64,000 nucleotides of DNA from Salinigranum rubrum (GTDB lineage: Archaea; Halobacteriota; Halobacteria; Halobacteriales; Haloferacaceae), in NCBI RefSeq assembly GCF_002906575.1, contig NZ_CP026309.1, positions 1,054,001 to 1,118,000 on the forward strand, given 5' to 3'. Below are positions 4,982-19,665 of the stretch, one piece after another. The notes under the pieces are model-generated. The model did not search any database. It saw nothing but the letters and a program-made list of their open reading frames with translations, and was not told the origin of the DNA. A program made the translations under genes and the position numbers. Numbering within the stretch: the stretch's first letter is position 1; each line of letters opens with the position of its first letter.

Positions 4982-5473
4982 CTAGAGCCCCGACCCGAGC
5001 ACGTACCCCGTGGCGAACCGGTACAGCCCCAGCAGCCACGCACCGAACCAGAACAGGACGTAGCCGAAGACGCCGACCCGCAGCCGCCCGCGCCACGCGC
5101 TCATGTTCTCGTGGAGTTCGTCGAGGTCGACGTCCGGGTCGGGGTCGCGGTAGAGGTTCGCCTGGTGTTTGGCCTGGAAGATGCGGACGATGCCGGTGAG
5201 CGCGAAGACGAGCATCGCGTACGCCTGCAGGCCGAGGATGGCGTGTAAGGCCGAGAGGCCGTTCAACTGTTGGAGCAACCGGGGTATCATCCACGTCACG
5301 ACGGGGACGGTGTTGAGAACCAGACCGGGGAAGATGTACGAGAGGTGATGAACGAGGACGTTCCACGTCACCGTCTCGGCGTCGATCATGATCTTCGCCC
5401 CGTAGAGGTAGAAGGGCAGACTCGACGTGACGAGGAGGGCCGCGACGGTCGCGTACGTCGACTCGCTCACCAT
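4982..5473 (-). CDS. Haloarchaeal multi-pass membrane protein of unknown function, 163 aa
   Basis: The protein has four predicted membrane segments: ATVAALLVTSSLPFYLYGAK, an IFPGLVLNTVPVVTW segment, ILGLQAYAMLVFALTGIVRI, and VGVFGYVLFWFGAWLLGLYR. His residues near the second and third segments (VHHLSY, LHAILG, KHQ) resemble the spacing of cytochrome b561-like or DUF420-like proteins, but heme binding is not shown. The ATG at 5471-5473 is the best start. It is the last gene of the minus-strand run that includes the peptide cluster; the 67-bp gap leaves open whether it belongs to it. Similar proteins occur as haloarchaeal DUFs. Confidence 0.7.
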   Translation of the reverse strand: MVSESTYATVAALLVTSSLPFYLYGAKIMIDAETVTWNVLVHHLSYIFPGLVLNTVPVVTWMIPRLLQQLNGLSALHAILGLQAYAMLVFALTGIVRIFQAKHQANLYRDPDPDVDLDELHENMSAWRGRLRVGVFGYVLFWFGAWLLGLYRFATGYVLGSGL

Positions 5474-5540: not shown

Positions 5541-6751
5541 TCACCCCTGCGGGCGGTTCTTCGGCCCGCGGCCGAGTTCGCGTCCCACGTCGGCGGAGAC
5601 GCGGACCGTCCGGGACAGGTAGTACAGCGGGTGGAGTCGTCGGGGAGCGGTCGCCACTCGTAGTCGCCCTCGGTGGGTCTGAAGGCGAGGCCGAGCGACA
5701 TCCGCGCCAGCGTGGACGCGTCGGTACACAGGAGGAGGTCGAACAGGAACCGCTCGTGTACCGACACCTCGTAGCACGGCATCGCCGGGTTCGCCGCGAG
5801 ACGGCGCTCGATGCGTCCGCAGAGCCAGTCGACTCGGCGGCTCGCCCGCGCCCGCCCGAGCAGCGACGCCGGCACCTCGACGTCGGTCAACTCGGCGACG
5901 AGACGCAGTCCGAGCAGGAGGTCACGCTCTGCCCCGGCGTCCCGTGCCCGGTCGAGGGTGACGCCCCAGTCGACTGCACAGGAGTGGACGAGCCTGGCGA
6001 CGTCCGACACCCAGCCGAGGCGTCCCCACGCGTGTTTCGCGCCGTGTCTCACGAGGGCGACGAGGCTGTCCTCGGGCGAGAGCGTCCGCACCGTCTCGCC
6101 GAAGAGCGACACCGGGTGACGCCGTGCCCAGAGCGACTCGAAGCCGTAGTCGACGGGGCGGTGCTTGCTCCCGAACAGCCAGCGCACCTCGACGCTTGTC
6201 CCGTCCGACGCCCGGTGAAAGGAGAACTCGCTGGGCGGCCGGATGACCGACGTGTCGTCCCTGATCTCCTCGACGCTCATCGACCAGTTCCGCTCCAGCG
6301 CGTACCCCATCGTCTCAAACGTCTCGACGACCGCTGGGAGGTCCGCCCGCCGAACGACGAAGTCGAGGTCGCCGTACTGCCGCGCGGTGACGTCGCCGTA
6401 GGCCATCTGCGCGAGGGCGGGTCCCTTGAACGGGACGATCGGCACCGCGGCGCGCTCGAACGCCTCGACGATTCGCGCCAGTTCGGTGGCGAGGTAGAGC
6501 CGCTCTCTCACCGCCGCCCGGTGGTCGTCGTCGAGTCGGTCCCGAACCCACGACGGCACCGAGACGTCGTCGCCGCTCACGAGCAGTCGGTGGAGGTGTG
6601 GCTCGACCGAGTGGGTCCACGCGATGTCACAGAGTGCTTCCCAGTCGGAGACCGAACCGACGAGCGATTCGATTGTCCCGCTCCGCTCCCGGGCGTGTGT
6701 GCCGGCCGCGGCCGCGACCACCCGGAGTTCGGGAGAGGCCGACCGCAGCAT
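5541..6751 (-). CDS. Nucleotidyltransferase-fold protein of a RiPP cluster (NTP_transf_5 type), needs one frameshift correction
   Basis: The central part shows the family signature VPFKGPALAQMAYGD followed by RQYGDLDFVV, the Gly-Asp-x-Asp metal site of the nucleotidyltransferase_5 family. Downstream is a helical domain with LVRHGAKHAWGRLGWVSDVARL. This family accompanies lasso-peptide operons with HPr-kinase-like genes; its reaction is not settled. The start ATG overlaps the kinase stop as TGATG, so the two are translationally coupled. After WRPLPD the frame breaks. Adding one base near 5639 restores RLHPLYYLSRTVRVSADVG and a stop at 5541, giving a protein of about 403 aa. This may be a sequencing error (see findings). 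Confidence 0.85.
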
Positions 6752-7722
6752 CAGTCCACCGCCACGTCGTCGAGGACAGCGTCCACCACTGCGGGGAGGT
6801 CGCTCCGACAGCGTCGTCGTCGCAGCGTCTTCACGGGGACCGACTGGGCGAGTCGGCCACACCGTTCGAGGTTGGCCCCCGCGCTGTCGACCCCTTCGAT
6901 CTCCAGGTCGGTGTACGTGTCCCGGATGAGCATCATGAGCGCCTCGCCCGACTGTAACGGCTCCAGTTCGATCCGCGAACCGGTCGCGAGGCTGTACAAC
7001 CGGCTGATGGGCAGCGGTTCCATCGACTCGCCGGGCACGCGGTAGAAGTGTCTGTCCAGCGTCGGCGACTGCGCCGGCAGCGGCTCCAGCGGAACCGACA
7101 GACCGGACACCGTCGCCGCGTCGAGCTTCAGGGCGGGAAAGCCCGGCTGAACGAGCGGCTTGTCGCCGTCGAACGTGATCGCCGCGACGTCGTCCGCGAG
7201 GACGCGGTAGCCCGCCCCGAGAAGCGCCAGTGCCGTCGTCGACTTCCCCGCCGTCGACTCGCCGAGGAAACACACCGCCCCGTCGCCGACCTGAACCGTA
7301 CTGGCGTGGAGGACCAGAAAGCCGCGCTGGTAGAGGAGGTGGTTGAACACCGAGCCGACCAGGTACCACCGCACCAGTTCGTCGTCGACGTCGGGTGCGC
7401 GGTCGAAGACGACCTCCGATCCGTTGCGAACGACGACGTCACCGACCTCCAGCGACAGGTAGAACTCCTCCCGGGACGCCACGGCGAGCCCGCGGTGGTC
7501 GTCTCCGGTCGGCCCCGGATGTGAGACGCTTCCCCGGCGAATCGTGACGTCCGCCGGCCCGTCGCTCGGCTCTCCCGGGAGGAACTCGGGGAGTTCGACG
7601 TCGGACCGAACCGACAGGCCGAACGCGACGTACCAGTGGGCGCCCGTCGTCGGCTCCGCTCGTGGTCCGACCGCCGTTTCGCGCTGCCCCCGAGAGGCGT
7701 GAGATGATATGTATTTGGACAT
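6751..7722 (-). CDS. HPr-kinase-like protein of the lasso-type cluster, 323 aa
   Basis: The C-terminal half carries the HPr kinase/phosphorylase fold. It has LVLHASTV, a P-loop GESTAGKST (Lys160), then GYRVLADDVAAI, the acidic pair after the P-loop typical of HprK. The N-terminal half (residues 1-130) is a beta-rich domain with little identity. In paeninodin-type lasso clusters such kinases phosphorylate the C-terminal Ser of the precursor; the precursor found just upstream here also ends in Ser. The ATG at 7722 is preferred to a GTG at 7761 because the GTG falls inside the promoter box. It is coupled by TGATG to the nucleotidyltransferase gene. Confidence 0.85.
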   Translation of the reverse strand: MSKYISSHASRGQRETAVGPRAEPTTGAHWYVAFGLSVRSDVELPEFLPGEPSDGPADVTIRRGSVSHPGPTGDDHRGLAVASREEFYLSLEVGDVVVRNGSEVVFDRAPDVDDELVRWYLVGSVFNHLLYQRGFLVLHASTVQVGDGAVCFLGESTAGKSTTALALLGAGYRVLADDVAAITFDGDKPLVQPGFPALKLDAATVSGLSVPLEPLPAQSPTLDRHFYRVPGESMEPLPISRLYSLATGSRIELEPLQSGEALMMLIRDTYTDLEIEGVDSAGANLERCGRLAQSVPVKTLRRRRCRSDLPAVVDAVLDDVAVD

Positions 7723-7758: not shown

Positions 7759-7770
7759 CACATAGTAATT
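7759..7770 (-). promoter_or_regulatory. TATA-like box of the kinase gene
   Basis: Read on the minus strand this is aattactatgtg. It lies 37 nt or more before the kinase ATG (7722). The core TwACTATg is shared with the boxes before the precursor, B1 and the exporter leader ORF, which suggests coordinated expression. Confidence 0.45.
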
Positions 7771-8010: not shown

Positions 8011-8127
8011 TTAACTGCGATTGTACTTCCAGCCCCCTCCCCAGCGGCGGCGACGGCCCCACTGGGTGGCGTCCGCGACGGTTCCGTAGTGGTTCAGCTT
8101 CGGTTGTGTGTAGCTTTTCTGAGCCAT
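8011..8127 (-). CDS. Lasso-type RiPP precursor peptide without an acidic acceptor, 38 aa
   Basis: The translation starts MAQKSYTQPKLNHYG, continues TVADATQ, and ends in the core WGRRRRWGGGWKYNRS. The leader fits the B1-recognition motif YxxPxLxxxGxxxxxTx exactly: Tyr6, Pro9, Leu11, Gly15, Thr21, then one residue. Cleavage by B2 would fall after Gln22, with the conserved Thr at position -2. The core has five Arg, one Lys, three Trp and four Gly and no Asp or Glu. The Asp/Glu at core position 7-9 that closes a lasso ring is absent (positions 7-9 are Trp-Gly-Gly). The C-terminal Ser suits the adjacent HPr-kinase-like enzyme. It has its own palindromic TATA-like promoter 29 nt upstream and sits between B2 and the kinase, a usual place for the precursor. 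Confidence 0.85.
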   Translation of the reverse strand: MAQKSYTQPKLNHYGTVADATQWGRRRRWGGGWKYNRS

Positions 8128-8156: not shown

Positions 8157-8170
8157 TACATAGTTATGTA
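8157..8170 (-). promoter_or_regulatory. Palindromic TATA-like promoter of the precursor gene
   Basis: tacata-gt-tatgta is a perfect 6-bp-arm palindrome ending 29 nt before the precursor ATG, the spacing expected for a TATA box on a leaderless transcript. The exporter's leader ORF has an equivalent palindrome gtata-gt-tatac at almost the same spacing. Confidence 0.6.
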
Positions 8171-8544
8171 TCCGAGTACGTCCGGTTAGCGAGGACGTGC
8201 GGACCGCCGCTGTCAGGTTACCCCGTCCGAAAATCCGACGCCCGGCGGTTATGCACACCACCCAGGTCAGCTCTGACGCGTTAGTGAGGACACATAACCC
8301 TGAATATTCCTGCCACCACCCGAAACAGTTCGACGACGGGCGGTTATGCGCACCCAACGCATCGCATGTGTCCGCCGTCGTGTCGAAACTCCGTCACGAC
8401 TCGGTCGCTCCCGTCGATGCACCGTCTCGACGTCCACTCGGGCGGCCGACACCGACGTCCGCGGCCTCTCGCTCCGCCGGGAGCGTCTTCGCCCCGAGCG
8501 GGGTCGGACGGGTGCTCGCGTTCTGACTCCCCTCACGGCCCGTT
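8171..8544. repeat. Gene-poor stretch with a 16-bp direct repeat (8244-8259 and 8340-8355)
   Basis: The gap between the precursor promoter and the B2 gene has no convincing gene. The sequence ggcggttatgc-cacc occurs at 8244-8259 (a at the variable position) and at 8340-8355 (g), 96 bp apart. The tract between the copies is AT-richer (cacataaccctgaatattcc), unlike the cluster genes. It could hold regulator sites or be the scar of a lost gene. I checked short minus-strand frames here for a second YxxPxL leader and found none. Confidence 0.55.
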
Positions 8545-9027
8545 TCACAGCACCGTTCGCCGCCGGAGTCCCGTCTCGTCGGTCGGGAGCGGCGTGTACT
8601 GCGAGAGGTCGTCCAGGTCGCCCAGCAGGACGCGCCCCTCGTGTTCGACCCACGCGTGTGCCCGGAACTCCGACCCGGCCTTCCTGACGCCGATGCGGAC
8701 GCGGGCGGGGTAGCCGTGGGAGGCGAGCATCGCCTGGGCCACGATGGCGCGTCTGAGACACGTCACCGACGCGGGGAGGTACGGCGACAGGACGTTGATC
8801 GACCACGTGACGTCGTCGCGGGTCGCGGTCGAGTCGGGGTCGGCCAGGAACCGACTCGCCCGTCCGACCGCGCTCTGTACGCTCCCGACGGGAACGAACG
8901 GGACGGCGAGCATGCCGTGGGTGACGAGCAGGAGGAGGTACGCCGACGCCAGCAGGCGCTGTCTCGTCCGCGAGTGGCGGGCGAACCGTCGAACCGAGCG
9001 GACGAATCGCCGCACCGAATCGATCAT
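8545..9027 (-). CDS. Lasso-peptide B2-type leader peptidase (transglutaminase-like), 160 aa
   Basis: B2 proteins cut the leader from the precursor after delivery by B1. The catalytic triad is present: Cys90 in SVTCLRRAIVAQAML, His124 in FRAHAWVEH, and Asp137 in LLGDLDD. RIGVRKAGSEF between them matches the family's conserved Gly-Val strand. The N-terminal hydrophobic stretch (AYLLLLVTHGMLAVPFVP) may attach it to the membrane near the exporter, as in many B2 homologues. Its ATG overlaps the B1 stop (ATGA), giving coupled translation. Length is slightly above the usual 140-150 residues. No cyclase gene follows it, unlike standard lasso operons. Confidence 0.92.
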   Translation of the reverse strand: MIDSVRRFVRSVRRFARHSRTRQRLLASAYLLLLVTHGMLAVPFVPVGSVQSAVGRASRFLADPDSTATRDDVTWSINVLSPYLPASVTCLRRAIVAQAMLASHGYPARVRIGVRKAGSEFRAHAWVEHEGRVLLGDLDDLSQYTPLPTDETGLRRRTVL

Positions 9028-9302
9028 TCGACCGTCGCGAGCCGTGCTGTCACCAGTTCGTCGACGAAGGCGACCAGGTCCCGGCGACACTCCTCGGCGC
9101 CGACGTCGTACTCTTCGAGGAGCAGTCTGTGAATCTCGGCGACCGACGCCGGTTCCTGGATGTGGGTCCAGATGGCGTACGCGACGTCCGACAGCCCGTG
9201 GTACTGGCCAGTCTCGGGGTGGAGGACGACCTGCTCGCCCCCGACGTCGGCCGAAACGTGGTTCTGGGTCGCCACGACGACGGAACGGTCCGTGATGCTC
9301 AT
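9024..9302 (-). CDS. Lasso-peptide B1-type protein (PqqD-like RiPP recognition element), 92 aa
   Basis: This is a stand-alone RRE: three strands followed by three helices that grip the precursor leader. The pattern is typical: VVLHPETGQYHGLSDVAYAI (strands plus the Leu-x-x-Val/Ala-x-x-Ile/Trp helix), then WTHIQEP and VAEIHRLLLEEYDV, and a last helix CRRDLVAFVDELVTARL. It would bind the Tyr/Pro/Leu/Gly part of the leader encoded at 8011-8127. Its stop overlaps the B2 start. A TATA-like box lies 28 nt before the ATG, so it heads a B1-B2 transcript. Confidence 0.92.
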   Translation of the reverse strand: MSITDRSVVVATQNHVSADVGGEQVVLHPETGQYHGLSDVAYAIWTHIQEPASVAEIHRLLLEEYDVGAEECRRDLVAFVDELVTARLATVE

Positions 9303-9330
9303 GACGATAGTCAGGGAGGCCCCTGTTCGA

Positions 9331-9340
9331 CATAGTTACT
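9331..9340 (-). promoter_or_regulatory. TATA-like box of the B1 gene
   Basis: Read on the minus strand this is agtaactatg, 28 nt before the start codon. It shares the TAACTAT core with the precursor and exporter promoters. Confidence 0.5.
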
Positions 9341-9458: not shown

Positions 9459-11266
9459 TCAGGCCGTCGCCGCGTGCGCCGCGAACAGCGCGGCGTACGC
9501 CCCCTCGTTCCTCACGAGTTCCCCGTGTGTCCCCGATTCGACGACCTCCCCGTGGGACATCACGTGGATGCGGTCCGCGTCCGCGATTGTCGACAGCCGG
9601 TGGGCGATGACGACGGTCGCCCGGTCGCGGTCAGAGGCGGCGAGCGCGTCGTACACCGCCGCTTCGAGCGACGCGTCAAGATTGCTCGTCGCCTCGTCGA
9701 GCACGAGCACGTCGGCGTCCGTGAGCAGCGCCCGTGCCAGCGCGACCCGCTGTCGCTGGCCTCCCGAGAGGCGGACGCCGTCGTCGCCCAGGACCGTTTC
9801 GAGTCCGCTGGGGAGGTGCGGCAGGAACTCGGTTATCTGTGCCACCTCGCACGCGCGTTCGAGTTCTCTCTCCCCGACGTCGGGGTTCCCGACGGTGAGG
9901 TTGAACCGCAGGGTGTCGTTGAACAGGAAGGGGTCCTGCCGCACGACGGCGACCCGTGCGCGCCACGAGTCGACGTCGAACGACGTCACGTCGCGGCCGT
10001 CGGCGCGGACCGTCCCCTCGGTCGGGTCGAACAGCCCGGTCAGAAGGGAGACGATGGTCGACTTCCCAGCCCCCGACTGACCGACGAACGCGACGGTCTC
10101 GCCGCGGTCGACCGAAAACGAGAGGTCGCGGACGCCGACCGTCCCGTCCGGGTACGCGTACGTCACGCGGTCGAAGTCGACGCGGTCGACTCGACGGGGT
10201 GCGGGGACGTCGACGTCCACGCGCTCTCTGTCCCGTTCGAGCGCGGTGATCGTTCGCTCGGTGTTGACGAGGTGCGGTAGCTCGCCGTCGAGCCCGTACG
10301 CCACGTTGTTCAGCGAACTCACGACCGGTGCGAGTCGGAACATCGAGAACAGGAAGACCGCGAACGAACCGACCGAGAGCGCGTACACCTCGATGGAGAG
10401 GTAGACGAGCGCGAACACCGTCACGGCGCTCGCGAACAGGTAGGCGTTGCCGAGAAGCGAGTTGTTCCGCTGGAGGCGAACGTACGAGTCCGCGTGGCTG
10501 TCGACCGCGTCGGCGAACCGGTCGCGTATCCGCTGACGCATCGTGAACAGGCGCACGTCGCGCGCGCCCATGATTCCCGACTGTGCCGTCTCCTGGATGC
10601 GCGCGTTCGCATCGGCGACCGCCTCTCCGGTGGCGTACGCCGGCTGGATTACCCGGTGGAGCAGGACGGTCACCGCACCCATCACGACGACCGCCACCAC
10701 GGTCAACTGGGGGGCGAGCACCAGCGCCACGGCGAGATACACCGAGCCGAGGAACAGCCGCTGGGCGAACTGGACGGCCCCCCGACGACCGCGGAGTGGT
10801 ACTCCGTCTGCGTGATGATCGCGTTCAGCAGTTCGTCCGAGCCGAGTTCGTCCAGCCGCTCGACACGGGCGTCGAGCGCGGCGTCGAACACCCGGGTCCG
10901 GAGGTCGCGCACGTACCTCGTCTCGAGGACCGCGAGCAGCCACGCGACGAGGAACTGCACGCCGAACCGCGCGCCGACGACGAGGGTGATGCCGGCGAGA
11001 ACGGTGCCGAGGGTAAAGGGCACGCCGAGCAGGTCGGAGGCGGCGACGAACGCGGAGAGGACCCGGTCCCCGTCGGTCGGGGGCACCCCGCCGCTCGTCG
11101 CCATCTCGATGATCGGGAGCATGAAGCTCAGTCCGATGCCCTCCAGCACGGCGGCGAGCAGGCTGAGCAGGAGGACGGCCGTCGCCAGCGCCGTGTTCGT
11201 CCGAACGGCCGCCCACACGAGACGGAGTTTTCGCCGCGGCGAGAGCGGCGCCCCCGTCGGCTCCAT
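9459..11266 (-). CDS. ABC transporter, fused permease-ATPase (peptide exporter of the cluster), needs one frameshift correction
   Basis: This is a type I exporter with one membrane domain and one ATPase domain, probably the secretion/immunity (D) component. The permease half runs from about residue 15 to 330 with segments such as LATAVLLLSLLAAVLEGIG and VYLAVALVLAPQLTVVAVV. The ATPase half has Walker A GQSGAGKST, the LSGGQRQRVALARALL signature, Walker B VLVLDEATSNLD and switch His AHRLS. The frame breaks after SAVVGG at a run of six C (10778-10783); one added base continues into AVQFAQRLFLGSV and gives 602 aa. The ATG at 11266 overlaps the stop of a 25-codon ORF (TGATG). Confidence 0.9.
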
Positions 11267-11343
11267 CACCGCTCTCGCCTCCCGGTCCGCGCGCTCGTCT
11301 GCCCGTCGCGCGGGCGTACGGGCGTCGACTTCACGCGGCTCAT
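11266..11343 (-). CDS. Leader micro-ORF, 25 codons, coupled to the exporter gene
   Basis: The micro-ORF encodes MSRVKSTPVRPRDGQT followed by SARTGRRER and a stop that overlaps the exporter ATG as TGATG. Its own ATG is 27 nt behind a palindromic TATA box, so it is the leaderless first cistron. A GGGAGG sequence inside it lies about 10 nt before the exporter ATG and could act as a Shine-Dalgarno site. The peptide is basic but lacks the YxxPxL leader motif, so it is more likely a translational coupler than a second precursor. It could also be the true exporter N-terminus if another base is missing. Confidence 0.5.
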   Translation of the reverse strand: MSRVKSTPVRPRDGQTSARTGRRER

Positions 11344-14855: not shown

Positions 14856-15634
14856 ATGAGCGACAACGACACCACGAACGAGGACGCACAGGACGCGATG
14901 ACGGACGGCTCCGGCAGCCTCGCCGTCCCGCCGGACGACGAGACGCCCACGTGGGGCGAGCGCAAGGCCCGAAAGACGGGCCTCTCGCGGCTCACCTACG
15001 AGTACTTCGAGCGCGCCCGGCGTGAGGACCAGGACCTCCGCCAGGAGTCGACGTACGTCGAGCGCGACGTGCTCGGCTTCCCGACGTGGCCCCACGAAGT
15101 GATTCGAAACCTCTCTATCGCGTCGTTCTTCACCGGGATGATCCTGTTCCTCTCGGCGACGATGCCGCCGCACATCGGCCCGCCGGCCAACCCCTCTTCC
15201 ACCCCGGCGGTCATCCTGCCCGACTGGTATCTGTACTGGTCGTTCGGCCTGCTCAAGCTGAACCCGCTGAACCCGAGCTCGCCATCCTCGGCGGGCAGAA
15301 GATCATGGCCGACCGGACGTACGGCGTGCTCGCGAACCTCGTCGTCGTCGGGTTCATCGCCATCGTCCCGTTCCTGAACAAGGGGTCGGCGCGTCGGCCC
15401 GTCGAGCAGCCGTTCTGGGCCGCCGTCGGCGTGCTCGGCATCGTCTTCGCCTTCACCATCTCGCTGCTGTCGGTGAAGAACCTCATCCCGATGAACGTCG
15501 ACCTGCTGTTCGACCTGACGTTCCTCCTGCCCATCGTCGCCGGCGTCGTCACCTACGCGGTGTTGAAGACGATGCGCGAGGGGTACACCTACGACCTCAA
15601 CCGCCGGTACTACCGGCTCAGGCCGCCGAAGTAA
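14856..15634 (+). CDS. Cytochrome b, C-terminal subunit, needs one frameshift correction
   Basis: This is the subunit-IV-like partner of the preceding cytochrome b. An acidic N-terminus leads to [18 protein letters not shown], then the first membrane helix, and the quinol-site motif family [19 protein letters not shown] followed by [11 protein letters not shown]. The frame breaks at LNPLNP: one missing G near 15275 shifts it. Restoring the base gives [19 protein letters not shown] and two more helices, a protein of about 259 aa. The intact paralogue at 62168-62944 shows exactly this continuation. As written the protein would lose its last two helices, so a base-calling error is likely. Confidence 0.9.
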
Positions 15635-15715: not shown

Positions 15716-16141
15716 ATGACGACAGACACAGACACCACCCGCTCGACCAGTGACGCCACCACGACGGCCACACAGACGGATGCCCAGTCCTCGCCCCAGT
15801 CGGCGGGTCGGCGCGGTCGGCGCGACGTCGAGGTGCCGATGCGGCTGTACAAGACCGTCACGGTGTTCTCGACGCTCATCGCCGTCGTCACGGTCGTCGC
15901 CGGCTTCTTCCTCCTCGACGCCGCGACGCTGCAGGTGAGCTTCCTCAGGGCGATCATCGCGGGCGTCCTGCGTGCGGTGGGGCTGGCGGTCCCGACGGGT
16001 GTGCTGAGCACCGTCCTCGCCGTCTGTGGGCTGCTCGTCATCGCGTTCGGTGCCGGGGTCTACACCGTCTCCACCCGGTTCCGCGCGGAAGGGATGGGAA
16101 AGTCTCAAGAGGGCGCCGACGAAGAGTCAGACAATGGCTGA
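15716..16141 (+). CDS. Small membrane protein of the cytochrome b operon, 141 aa
   Basis: A Thr/Ser/Asp-rich N-terminus of about 45 residues is followed by RRDVEVPMRLYKTVTVFST and two membrane segments (FSTLIAVVTVVAGFFLLDAA and LSTVLAVCGLLVIAFGAGVY). The C-terminal tail is acidic. Its end overlaps the next start by 8 bp (ATGGCTGA), so the pair is translationally coupled. It corresponds to the DUF7315-type proteins of haloarchaeal cytochrome b operons, as best I recall. No cofactor motif is present, so a structural role is most likely. Confidence 0.75.
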   Translation: MTTDTDTTRSTSDATTTATQTDAQSSPQSAGRRGRRDVEVPMRLYKTVTVFSTLIAVVTVVAGFFLLDAATLQVSFLRAIIAGVLRAVGLAVPTGVLSTVLAVCGLLVIAFGAGVYTVSTRFRAEGMGKSQEGADEESDNG

Positions 16142-16409
16142 CGAATTCATCAAGGGGCTCGGCATCTTCACGGGCGGTGGTCTCGCCTGGCTGACCCTCG
16201 CGAGCTGGTACCGGACCCCTGGCTTCGAGAGCACCCAGCAGCTCGTCGCGCCGATCACCGTCTCCGGGGACAACCTGTTCAACGCGCTCGGGATCGTGCT
16301 GATGGACGTCTTCTTCTGGTTCACCCTCATCGGCGCGCTGACGTTCTGGGTGCTCATCCCGGGGACCCGAGAGCTGCGTAAGGCTATCGAGAACCGCCGC
16401 ACCGAGTAG
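16134..16409 (+). CDS. Small two-helix membrane protein of the cytochrome b operon, 91 aa
   Basis: It begins MADEFIKGLGIFTGGGLAWL and has hydrophobic segments IFTGGGLAWLTLASW and ALGIVLMDVFFWFTLIGALT, ending in a charged helix (ELRKAIENRRTE). The ATG inside the end of the preceding gene is chosen because this family normally begins MADEF-like and the overlap indicates coupling. It is the last plus-strand gene of the respiratory operon; a T-rich stretch at 16420-16425 follows. Function unknown; an accessory subunit is likely. Confidence 0.75.
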   Translation: MADEFIKGLGIFTGGGLAWLTLASWYRTPGFESTQQLVAPITVSGDNLFNALGIVLMDVFFWFTLIGALTFWVLIPGTRELRKAIENRRTE

Positions 16410-16964
16410 CTCGCCCGCGCTCTTTTCATCCCGTTCTCCTCTTCGGACCGGACCGTCTGTCGCCTCTCGCGCACCGAAGAGTGACGCCTCGGACGCACGG
16501 TCTCTCGTGAACGGGCACGGTCTCTCCCGAACGAGTCCGAGTTCACCCGTCTGCGGCATCCCCGGCACCTACTGCGAGTGTCTCCCGGCGCGAGTTCGTC
16601 GCCGGCGAGAGTCGGCGTGAACAGCGGCGGTGCACGGACGCGGCTGACCGTTGTCTCGTCCGCTCTCGGCCGGCGCCTCGCGCCGGCGCTGATGCGAGCG
16701 GGCCACGCTGTGTCTCGCTGGCCACGCGAGCGACTCGTGGGGTCCGCAGACGCAGACGAATCGGCCAGGGGCGCTTGTGGTCTCAGCGCGTCCGTACACC
16801 ACACGGTCGCTGCAGTACGCCCGTACACCACGCGGTCGCCGTCGCTGTTCGTATCCTCCCCGTCTTTCCCTCCCCTCGGTTCGCCGAATACACCCATTCC
16901 ACGCCGAACACGCCACGCTCTCGCGTCAGCAAACCCTGACCGCGAAATCGCGCGTCGAGCCGTC
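16410..16964. other. Gene-free stretch with a short direct repeat
   Basis: About 555 bp between two convergent genes. The several long open frames here are Arg/Ser/Pro-rich and lack protein character. A block cgtacaccac(a)cggtcgc occurs twice near 16790-16840. I see no RNA gene or mobile-element terminal repeat. Confidence 0.55.
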
Positions 16965-17411
16965 TCAGACGATGGCCGTCCAGATGGGCTCGATGATGAA
17001 AAAGAGGCTCTGGAAGCCGGCGTACAGCAGCGCGACGAGCGACGCCGTGAGGGCCGCCTTCGGTCGTTCCATCTGCATCTCGTTGCGGGCTTCGACCCTG
17101 CGGGCTTCGAACTCGAAGAAGTCCGCGAGGAACACCCCGAGGACGAGGACGGACATGACCATGCCGCCGTGCGGCGCGACGACGAGGAAGGCGAACGACG
17201 CGAGGACGAGGAGCACCGTCGTGACCGAGTGTGGGGTGTACCGTTCTATCTCGGCGTCGTCCTCAGCGTCCTCCGCCTGCTCGACGTGCTTTCGGTGCGC
17301 GAGGAGGCGCGTCACCATGTTCGCCAGCACCAGCACCAGCACGACGAACGGGATCACCGACGCCGCCGCGACCAGTGGGTCGAGCGGGACGAGGAACTGA
17401 AGCGGTTGCAT
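16965..17411 (-). CDS. Haloarchaeal three- to four-helix membrane protein, 148 aa
   Basis: The membrane segments are VAAASVIPFVVLVLVLANMV, VTTVLLVLASFAFLVVAPHG, GMVMSVLVLGVFLADFFEF and ALTASLVALLYAGFQSLFFI. Between the first two is a charged loop (RKHVEQAEDAEDDAEIERY). A conserved Pro-His (APHGGMV) starts the third helix. It is convergent with the cytochrome b operon and resembles DUF7313-type proteins that usually lie beside it. Likely a partner of the respiratory complex, but this rests on gene order only. Confidence 0.7.
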   Translation of the reverse strand: MQPLQFLVPLDPLVAAASVIPFVVLVLVLANMVTRLLAHRKHVEQAEDAEDDAEIERYTPHSVTTVLLVLASFAFLVVAPHGGMVMSVLVLGVFLADFFEFEARRVEARNEMQMERPKAALTASLVALLYAGFQSLFFIIEPIWTAIV

Positions 17412-17435
17412 ACCCGACGTTCGGGCAGGTACTCA

Positions 17436-18158
17436 TTAGAGTTTTTCCAATCTCCGCGCCCCGTCGGCGGGTGTCGGAGGCCGGAGGAGGTCGACCGTCC
17501 GGCCGACGGTCAACCGGACCGGGTCGTCGACCGTCACCCGTCGTCTGACTTGGCCGTCGACGACGAGCGAGACGGGCGACTCGTCGCGCTCGACGTCGAG
17601 GGCGACCGGGGCATCGACCACCCAGGTGCGCGGCTTCGTCGTGTACGGCGAGATGGGGACGACCGCGAGTCCCGCCCCGGCGGCGAGGAGCGGACCGCCG
17701 GTGGCGTGGCCGTAGCCGGCGCTTCCGGCAGGGGTGGCGACGACGACGCCGTCGGCGCGGAACGACCCCAGCACGCCCGACCCGTCGGCGACCGTGTACT
17801 CGGAGATGTGGGCGGGTTCGCTCGTCACGAGCGCGACGTCGAGGAGGCCCCGCACCTCGCGTCCGCTGACGTCGACCGACAGGACCGGGTGCGGGACGGT
17901 CCGCGCGTCGAGTTCGGTCGGGCTGAGGGCGGTGAGCGCCTCGTCGACCTGCTCCCGCGCGACGCCGTGTCGACCGACGCTCGTCGCGACGGGGAGCACC
18001 GGCACCGGGGCGGGGTCGTCGACCAGCGAGCGGAGCGCCTCGTCGCCAACCGCGAGGACGAGGTCGGCCGCCCCCTCGCGGTCGGTCAGCGTGACGTCGG
18101 GTTCGTCGTCGGAGAGGTCGGCCGCCCCCGGGGCGCGGACGGCAACCGTCACCGACAT
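17436..18158 (-). CDS. NAD kinase-like protein with degenerate GGDGT motif, 240 aa
   Basis: It is related to ATP-NAD kinases. The C-terminal half shows the family signature ATPAGSAGYGHATGGPLLA (normally TPTGSTAY...SAGG), followed by VVPISPYTTKPRTW, the beta-rich domain. In the N-terminal half the catalytic GGDGT motif is replaced by LVLAVGDEALRSLV. Loss of the double Gly and the Thr suggests weak or changed phosphate-donor binding. The ATG at 18158 starts a normal N-terminus (MSVTVAVRAPGA). Size is small for the family (about 270-300). It may be a paralogue that binds but does not phosphorylate NAD. Confidence 0.75.
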   Translation of the reverse strand: MSVTVAVRAPGAADLSDDEPDVTLTDREGAADLVLAVGDEALRSLVDDPAPVPVLPVATSVGRHGVAREQVDEALTALSPTELDARTVPHPVLSVDVSGREVRGLLDVALVTSEPAHISEYTVADGSGVLGSFRADGVVVATPAGSAGYGHATGGPLLAAGAGLAVVPISPYTTKPRTWVVDAPVALDVERDESPVSLVVDGQVRRRVTVDDPVRLTVGRTVDLLRPPTPADGARRLEKL

Positions 18159-18369
18159 CGGCGTCCCTCCCGCGTCACACGCATCACGGTCACCGCTTCG
18201 CCTGCACGGATAAAAGTCCCCGCGGTTCACGCCGGTTGGGACGACGCGGAGGACGCGTGCCGGCCGCCCGTCGACCCCTCGTCGATTCGTTCTCCCGCCG
18301 GCGGTCGGTTCGTCGTCCGGTCGTGGCTCGCCGGCGTCCACCCGTCGACACCAGCGTCACCGCTCGGAG

Positions 18370-19665
18370 TCAGAACGGCCAGTCGCCCGTCGCTCGCATC
18401 CCCGCCGCCTCGCCCTGATCTTCGAGCGCGTCGGCGATTCGCTCGCGGGGGTGGGATTCGAGGTCGGCGTCCGCGCGCGCGAGTTCGACGACCACCTCGG
18501 CGAGTAGCACGGCCTGCTCGCGGAACGTCCGCATCTCGAGTTTGTCCAGCGTGTCCGCCTCGGTGTGGCCCCAGCCGCGTCCGCGTTCGCCGGTCTCCGC
18601 CGACACCATACAGCCCGGGAGGCCGCGGGCGACGAACGGCCAGTGGTCCGAGTGCGGGAGGTGTTCGGGGACGACCGTGATGGGGTGGTCGTACCGCTCG
18701 CCCACGCGCTCGAACGCGTCCCCGAGGCCGTCGAAGCCGCCCACGTGCGTCTGGAGCGTGCGGCCCCCGCACACCCCGTCGAGGTTGCAGACGGCGCGAA
18801 CGTCGTCCGCGCGTTCGGCGTGATACCCCGACCCGACGAGGCCGACCTCCTCGCTGCCGAAACACGCGAGGTGAACCCGCGTGTCGAGTTCGTCTTCGCG
18901 CTCGGCGAGGACGCGCGCGACTTCGACCACCATCGCCGTCCCCGCGCCGTTGTCGAGCGCGCCCTCGGCGACGTCGTGAGCGTCGACGTGGCTCGTCAGG
19001 TAGACCGCCTCGTCGGTGTCGGGGCCGACGTCGGCGTGGACGTTTCCGCTCTCGGCGTCGGGCGTCTCACATCGGGTGCGGACGGTCACGTCCTCGTCGA
19101 CGTGCCGTCGGGCCAGTTGCGCGCCGACCTCCTTCGAGACACCCACCGCGGGAATCTCGCCGATCGGTGCGTCCTCGGTGCCGACACTCCCCGTCGGTGG
19201 AAGCTGACCCGGAACGTGGTTGCGGAAGACGAAGCCCGCGGCCCCCGCCTCGACGGCCCGGTAGTACTTCTCGCGACGGTGGATGAAACGGTCGACGTGG
19301 TCGGGGACGGTCGAGGAGACGAGGACGACCGTCCCGGAGAGGTCGCGGTCGAACGCCTCGGGGAGTCCGTCGCCTACGTCGACGAGCCGTCCCGTCGCGC
19401 TCCCGCTCGGACTCCGCGGGAGCGCGATGCACGAGAGCGTGCGTTCGCCGGCGTCGACCGCGCTGTCGCCGCGAACCCACCCCTGGATGGGGAACGGGTC
19501 GACGGTCGCGTCGCGCGCGCCGACCGCCGAGAGCGCCTCCCGGGTCGCCGCCAGCGCCTCGTCTTCGCCGGGCGTGCCGGCCATCCGGTTCCCGATGTCG
19601 ACCAGCCGTTCGAGGTGTGACCACCCGACGTCGCTCGTGAAGGTGTCTCCGATCCACGCGGTCAT
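18370..19665 (-). CDS. M28 family zinc metallopeptidase with PA domain, 431 aa
   Basis: This is an aminopeptidase-like enzyme with two zinc ions. The ligands are visible in order: His/Asp in LTSHVDAHD, Asp in GALDNGAGTAM, Glu pair in ACFGSEEVGLVG, Asp in AVCNLDGV and the final His in GWGHTEADTLDKLEMR. A protease-associated insert (residues about 95-190, with LSGTVVLVSSTVPDHVDRF) lies between the N-terminal helix region and the zinc core. No signal peptide is present, so it is likely cytoplasmic. The ATG at 19665 fits better than one 21 bp upstream (MAPPRGG). Gene stands alone. Confidence 0.9.
   Translation of the reverse strand: MTAWIGDTFTSDVGWSHLERLVDIGNRMAGTPGEDEALAATREALSAVGARDATVDPFPIQGWVRGDSAVDAGERTLSCIALPRSPSGSATGRLVDVGDGLPEAFDRDLSGTVVLVSSTVPDHVDRFIHRREKYYRAVEAGAAGFVFRNHVPGQLPPTGSVGTEDAPIGEIPAVGVSKEVGAQLARRHVDEDVTVRTRCETPDAESGNVHADVGPDTDEAVYLTSHVDAHDVAEGALDNGAGTAMVVEVARVLAEREDELDTRVHLACFGSEEVGLVGSGYHAERADDVRAVCNLDGVCGGRTLQTHVGGFDGLGDAFERVGERYDHPITVVPEHLPHSDHWPFVARGLPGCMVSAETGERGRGWGHTEADTLDKLEMRTFREQAVLLAEVVVELARADADLESHPRERIADALEDQGEAAGMRATGDWPF

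Follow-up and report, generated by a model that had tools for sequence, protein, structure and literature searches.

The window, by which we mean the whole 64-kb stretch of Salinigranum rubrum DNA analysed here (genome G000), holds a gene cluster in the order B1-B2-A-K-N together with an ABC exporter (Table 1). A is a small frame of 38 codons between B2 and the HPr-kinase-like gene K, with the translation MAQKSYTQPKLNHYGTVADATQWGRRRRWGGGWKYNRS, which an earlier note, made from the DNA letters, had proposed as a precursor peptide with a lasso-type leader. The frame is real. A search for short frames with a nearby start codon that match YxxPxLxxxGxxxxxT gives a single hit in the window, whereas 100 first-order Markov sequences of equal length yield none; this places the leader motif beyond chance. 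A looser form of the motif occurs twice in the window against a mean of 0.21 in random sequence. Placing the core boundary by the Thr(-2) rule, with Thr21 taken as residue -2, gives the predicted core WGRRRRWGGGWKYNRS, whose 5 Arg, 1 Lys, 3 Trp and lack of any Asp or Glu (net +6) agree with the description given earlier of six positive charges, three Trp and no acid.

Compared with a lasso system, A has the YxxPxL leader with Thr at -2 and stands beside both a B1 RRE and a B2 leader peptidase; the two neighbours named in the earlier note are genuine by their domain matches (Table 1). It lacks a macrolactam cyclase of the Asn_synthase family and an Asp or Glu at core positions 7-9. The claim that an isopeptide ring is impossible here holds, there being no acid in the core, and the absence of a cyclase independently agrees with it. 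The kinase, the NTP_transf_5 gene, the ABC exporter and the missing cyclase are additions to what had been observed before. A similarity search with the whole 38-mer in 391 genomes returned only A itself as significant (next best E 0.02), and weak 33-aa matches in one genus became meaningful only after a B2 search had placed them beside B2.

Table 1. Features of the cluster and its surroundings in the 64-kb window.
Feature	Position	Strand	Evidence or remark
DUF7321 protein	4982-5460	-	E 4.9e-78
N, NTP_transf_5 protein	about 5541..6751	-	E 7.6e-55; frame break near 5640
K, HPr-kinase-like peptide kinase	6751..7722	-	Hpr_kinase_C E 3.2e-6, below family cut-off
TTACTATGT element upstream of K	7760..7768	-	
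Precursor A	8011..8127	-	leader MAQKSYTQPKLNHYGTVADATQ + predicted core WGRRRRWGGGWKYNRS
Upstream element of A, CATAACTATGT	8158..8168	-	CATAACTA 8161-8168, TAACTATGT 8158-8166
Two GCATAACCGCC-containing repeats in B2-A gap	8236-8259, 8331-8354	-	
B2, transglutaminase-like leader peptidase	8545..9027	-	Transglut_core3 E 1.7e-23; NCBIfam lasso_biosyn_B2 E 4.5e-27
B1, PqqD-type RiPP recognition element	9024..9302	-	PqqD E 5.6e-20
TAACTATGT element upstream of B1	9330..9338	-	
ABC exporter	9459..11269	-	ABC_tran E 1e-33, MsbA-like E 8.7e-96; in two frames, 10703-11269 and 9459 to about 10790 (three-frame translation)
Cytochrome b-like housekeeping gene	14856-15634	+	frame-broken

The ATG of B2 overlaps the stop codon of B1. 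In B2 a Cys and a His, which we take to be the catalytic residues of the family, are present in 28 of 28 haloarchaeal proteins. The closest solved structure to B1 is PbaB1 (9x90, E 2.8e-13), and in a gap-free alignment, with the residue mapping our own, B1 Asp75, a residue shared by all 28 haloarchaeal B1 proteins compared, falls on PbaB1 Gln79. The Tyr-reading LppB is described as having Asp70 at that same position, four residues before a Phe (PMC13381572), and Asp75 of B1 likewise lies four residues ahead of a Phe. The active-site residues of K are intact (H-x14-G-x4-GKS...DD), with the spacing from the His to GKS and to the Asp pair seen in the lasso kinase BsfK, and the residues reported to matter in BsfK are kept (PMC10368454). 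The exporter is split between frames, and N shares one open frame with the DUF7321 protein that follows it because of the frame break within N. Together with the cytochrome b-like gene this makes three frame-split genes in some 10 kb of the window; breakage of that housekeeping gene points to the assembly, and the breaks are probably single-base assembly indels.

We then surveyed 391 Halobacteria genomes, drawn evenly from the larger class, and found B2 in 27 at a threshold of E 1e-8. Fifteen of these 27 have no cyclase near B2 and hold 16 clusters between them (G000 with two, G318, G036, G390 and 11 of the genus Haloarcula); they represent five or more genus codes. In eleven others the locus itself includes a cyclase. 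G002 keeps B1, B2 and N in one place, with a cyclase and K about 20 kb away; it was placed in neither locus group, but its core was counted with the cyclase-bearing cores. A precursor profile added four cyclase-bearing clusters (G062, G064, G105 and G313); a weak profile match in G229 had no cluster. B1, B2, K and N occur together in all 16 cyclase-less clusters and the ABC gene in 15, with none found in G318. At least one small leader-bearing frame is likewise present in 16 of 16, so the proposal of a precursor survived the comparison that the earlier note had named as a possible refutation, a loss of the small frame where B1 and B2 are kept.

Profiles and trees bear on how these clusters are related. 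A leader profile matched 14 of the 391 genomes at E 4e-11 or better, all of them with B2, and the next matches (E 4e-6 and worse) were mostly cyclase-bearing clusters and G390; because the 14 supplied or resemble the profile rows, only the absence elsewhere counts as independent evidence. A K profile matched 31 of 391 genomes, with the main cyclase-less group at 434-512 bits versus at most 242 for all others including G390, and a scan of genome contigs with the K alignment returned 7 loci. The cyclase-less label requires 2 changes on the K, B2 and B1 trees and 3 on the N tree, versus 7.7-9.3 on shuffled labels. On the K tree, from which G051 (K intact) was left out over a wrongly cut frame, all cyclase-less rows except G390 form one group (98/93), a grouping less clear on the B1 tree. 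As the trees are unrooted, cyclase loss and a cyclase never present look the same on them. G390, which branches apart from the others and reaches only 185 bits with the K profile, may be an independent cyclase-less case. Three precursors lie beside B2 in G390 (L072, 9732-11180, plus strand); of these, one has an extended stretch of Gly and two are rich in Gly, Lys and Arg.

A tblastn search for the cyclase itself, with a haloarchaeal lasso cyclase from locus L093 as query, gave no match across the window and the other 15 cyclase-less loci. The same query did match 16 loci, counting L093 itself, with E values no worse than 2e-78. Elsewhere in the 98%-complete G000 there is no cyclase match of lasso strength, the best reaching 37 bits over partial length. 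Among 20 whole genomes the query scored 291-940 bits in the five cyclase-bearing ones and at most 59 bits in G318, G390, G185 and G036, and it found no match in G154 and G055, in which the cluster is kept. The best matches in the other eight Haloarcula-genus genomes, at 126-147 bits, are to full-length proteins that score 307-322 bits against Pfam Asn_synthase versus 131-186 for the best cluster cyclases; we read these as ordinary asparagine synthetases, a view also favoured by their absence from G154, G055 and G185, which do keep the cluster. A cyclase acting in trans is therefore unlikely.

The second cyclase-less cluster of G000, at 1.66 Mb on contig C1 (L009), contains six intact short precursors and two decayed ones in an array at 15728-19488 on the minus strand (C1 about 1.667-1.670 Mb; for example MTYEKPTLETYGRVESLTQLEKYSEPL). 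Their leaders are nearly identical and their cores variable, at 8-12 aa, with G-S-[EY]-P in five of six and Y-S-E-P in the sixth, and the array resembles a gene family evolving by birth and death.

This array shares upstream elements with A. In the window, TWACTATGT precedes each of K, A and B1, giving three occurrences versus 0.01 expected; genome-wide it has 8 sites versus 7 for a reversed control, and a fourth site abuts the second-cluster B1 and, as some others do, overlaps an ATG. CATAACTA is not enriched overall, with 14 sites in the genome versus 22 for its reversed control, and 8 of the 14 precede precursor frames: A, 41 nt upstream of its ATG, and seven second-cluster copies, of which six are intact (57-73 nt) and one has lost its start codon. 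No precursor-like frame was found at the other six sites. Both patterns were chosen after reading these upstream regions, and the counts are given without probabilities because of that choice. These shared elements argue for A as a gene with a putative promoter of the type found at the second-cluster precursors. A longer promoter pattern, ACTATGTNCGAAC, was rejected as being at chance level (3 found versus 2.2 expected).

To compare cores, we counted from the residue after Thr-x in 15 distinct cyclase-less precursors and 26 beside a cyclase. Core length ranges over 8-26 aa in the cyclase-less set (median 12; range 8-16 aa once G390 is set aside), with precursors of 27-38 aa (without G390), and over 15-32 aa (median 26) beside a cyclase. 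The pattern for a ring motif, written after viewing the sequences and loosely K-x-G-x-x-x-D or GxHFSxVD, matches 23 of 26 cores beside a cyclase versus 1 of 15 cyclase-less ones. The acid at core positions 7-9 separates the groups less sharply (15/26 versus 5/15), and a strict rule equating a cyclase with a ring acid there was rejected; a missing acid alone is a weak marker, because five cyclase-less cores have one, and in G086 a cyclase stands beside a Gly/Arg-repeat precursor with no acid at 7-9. Cyclase-less cores are mostly rich in Gly and in Tyr or Trp. Their net charge runs from -5 to +6, as in WWDHDDGYGKWS (net -2) and DEHYGHDEEY (net -5), with the A core at the extreme and the other 14 distinct cores between -5 and +3.

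The core WWDHDDGYGKWS belongs to a 32-aa precursor that is identical in nine Haloarcula-genus genomes. In G055 and G185 (L092 and L073) its terminal Ser is replaced by Asp with the kinase intact, and the G185 precursor is shorter. Over the 45 pairs among ten Haloarcula-genus genomes, G185 being left out for its length, mean divergence is 2.6% within the 96-nt frame compared to 17% and 23% in the 99-nt flanks, with a pN/pS of 0.046, which bears the mark of a translated, constrained peptide. The A core and WWDHDDGYGKWS have in common Trp1, a charged block (of opposite sign), Gly and aromatics, a Lys-aromatic pair and a terminal Ser.

We propose, with a probability of roughly 70%, that A is the precursor of a linear RiPP, produced by a lasso-type enzyme set from which the macrolactam cyclase is absent, and that the peptide is delivered by the RRE, cut by B2, probably phosphorylated and exported. 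The product would be straight and decorated rather than knotted, because there is no ring-closing enzyme and the ring-less arrangement is kept in related archaea. In this scheme, for which we infer transcription, modification, cleavage site, export and product function, B1 would bind the YxxPxL leader and present the precursor to K, which would phosphorylate it, in A most likely on Ser38, the C-terminal residue and only Ser of the core; N may afterwards decorate the phosphate, possibly with a sugar or a nucleotide; B2 would remove the leader after Gln22; and the ABC protein would export the short core. Related chemistry has been shown by others. The HPr-type kinase BsfK, helped by the RRE, phosphorylates Ser in a lasso precursor (PMC10368454), PsmN, annotated as a nucleotidyltransferase, is needed for the addition of one or two hexoses to the phospho-Ser of pseudomycoidin (PMC9266682), and a cyclase-less cluster of Bacillota source with an RRE, a kinase, an NTP transferase and an exporter yields a linear phosphorylated peptide (PMC13381572). 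The target of K is the weak point of the proposed mechanism, as the G318, G055 and G185 cores contain no Ser or Thr and K is intact in all three.

The cluster could instead be the relic of a true lasso cluster that recently lost its cyclase and whose core has drifted and yields no product. The frame breaks in the exporter and N, the two decayed precursor copies of the second cluster and the absence of any B2 or K match in the same-genus genome G349 would fit such decay. However, the cytochrome b-like gene is broken as well, which turns the frame breaks towards assembly indels, the active sites of K and B2 are intact, 15 genomes from no fewer than five genus codes share the cyclase-less state, and the Haloarcula frame is under strong constraint, so that we regard decay as an unlikely account of the locus.

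The earlier note had favoured a cationic, membrane-active peptide, perhaps an archaeocin, and the net charge of +6 and three Trp of the A core do invite that reading. It finds no support among the cyclase-less relatives, which keep the leader and the cluster yet vary in charge, A alone being strongly cationic. In addition, nothing resembling an immunity gene was recognised when the genes common to 8 of the 16 cyclase-less loci were compared, and near-invariance in Haloarcula is unlike a fast-evolving toxin. A Trp/Arg-rich archaeocin acting on membranes is therefore distinctly improbable. A single near-invariant peptide in Haloarcula (WWDHDDGYGKWS) together with a variable array in G000 may point to a function in signalling or at the cell surface more than to killing, and a signal role is possible for A.

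The leader might be right and the true C-terminus altered by an assembly indel, given that three frame breaks fall in about 10 kb of the window and that the G-rich DNA of the A core contains GGGGAGGGGG. At that rate, however, we estimate a chance of only about 3-4% for a 117-nt frame, and the core as read is close to that of Haloarcula (WWDHDDGYGKWS), having Trp directly behind Thr-x and Lys-aromatic-x-x-Ser at its end, making such an error very improbable. That A is a lasso closed by a cyclase encoded elsewhere is scarcely credible: Asn_synthase-family proteins do exist in G000, but the best match there is the partial one of 37 bits versus 291-940 in the five cyclase-bearing genomes, G154 and G055 keep the cluster with no match at all, there is no acid in the A core, and sister cores can measure only 8 aa.

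For a linear RiPP of this kind the nearest published class is that of the linear polyphosphorylated peptides (LPPs; Popov et al. 2026), which its authors call restricted to Bacillota (PMC13381572). The haloarchaeal clusters and LPPs have in common a discrete RRE, an HprK-like kinase, an NTP transferase, an MsbA-like exporter, a YxxP leader, the lack of a cyclase and a linear product, which in our case we infer. They differ in peptidase, leader, precursor length and host. LPP clusters encode a SpI-like peptidase and 35-200-aa precursors with the leader YxxPxVLxHQxIxFETxxS (PMC13381572), whereas the haloarchaeal clusters have B2, with no further gene common to most of the 8 cyclase-less loci compared, and the shorter precursors carry Y-x-x-P-x-[LV]-x-x-[YH]-G-x-V-x-x-x-[TS]; the A leader, YTQPKLNHYGTVADAT, does not fit the LPP pattern. 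The system is best read as an archaeal counterpart of the LPPs in which B2 takes the place of the signal-peptidase-like protease. We see as evenly balanced the stronger proposal that haloarchaea have their own lasso-derived, ring-less RiPP class, separate from Bacillota LPPs, in which 8-16-aa cores would be freed by B2, phosphorylated, possibly further decorated, and exported.

Prior reports touch on parts of this system. A cluster of RRE type with B1, B2 and a kinase has been reported in a Haloarcula hispanica strain (PMC10093198), so the enzymes had been flagged earlier; the accessible portion of that account gives no precursor, remark on a missing cyclase or product class. Lassopeptides are counted among archaeal RiPP classes (PMC12144867), and the accessible text of a further paper (PMC10105419) makes no mention of lasso peptides. 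Among the open-access papers that our literature searches listed, no title or displayed abstract describes these haloarchaeal precursors. The clusters suggest that lasso machinery can persist with no lasso product, in another domain and with the original peptidase. Mining rules that demand a cyclase or a ring acid would overlook such precursors, and frames of 27-38 aa tend to escape gene callers. The scheme predicts a modified peptide of 12-13 aa in culturable Haloarcula species, and the system would also test whether HPr-type kinases and NTP_transf_5 proteins alone define a peptide class.

Phosphorylated lasso peptides (paeninodin, pseudomycoidin and Bsf) likewise come from clusters with B1, B2, an HPr-type kinase, an NTP transferase and an exporter, and paeninodin precursors end in Ser as the A core does. 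Unlike the A cluster, all three have a cyclase and a ring acid, and paeninodin leaders have Trp where the A leader has Tyr. Cyclase-bearing haloarchaeal lasso clusters (for example in G309, G119 and G104) share the leader type and B1, B2, K, N and ABC with A and differ in their cores, which are mostly of the K-x-G-x-x-x-D type and 22-32 aa long. Textbook lasso cores of the form G-[RN]-H-F-S-x-V-D, with Gly1 and Asp8, occur in the cyclase-bearing clusters of G344 (L074, about 15220, minus strand) and G104 (L081, about 6629, plus strand).
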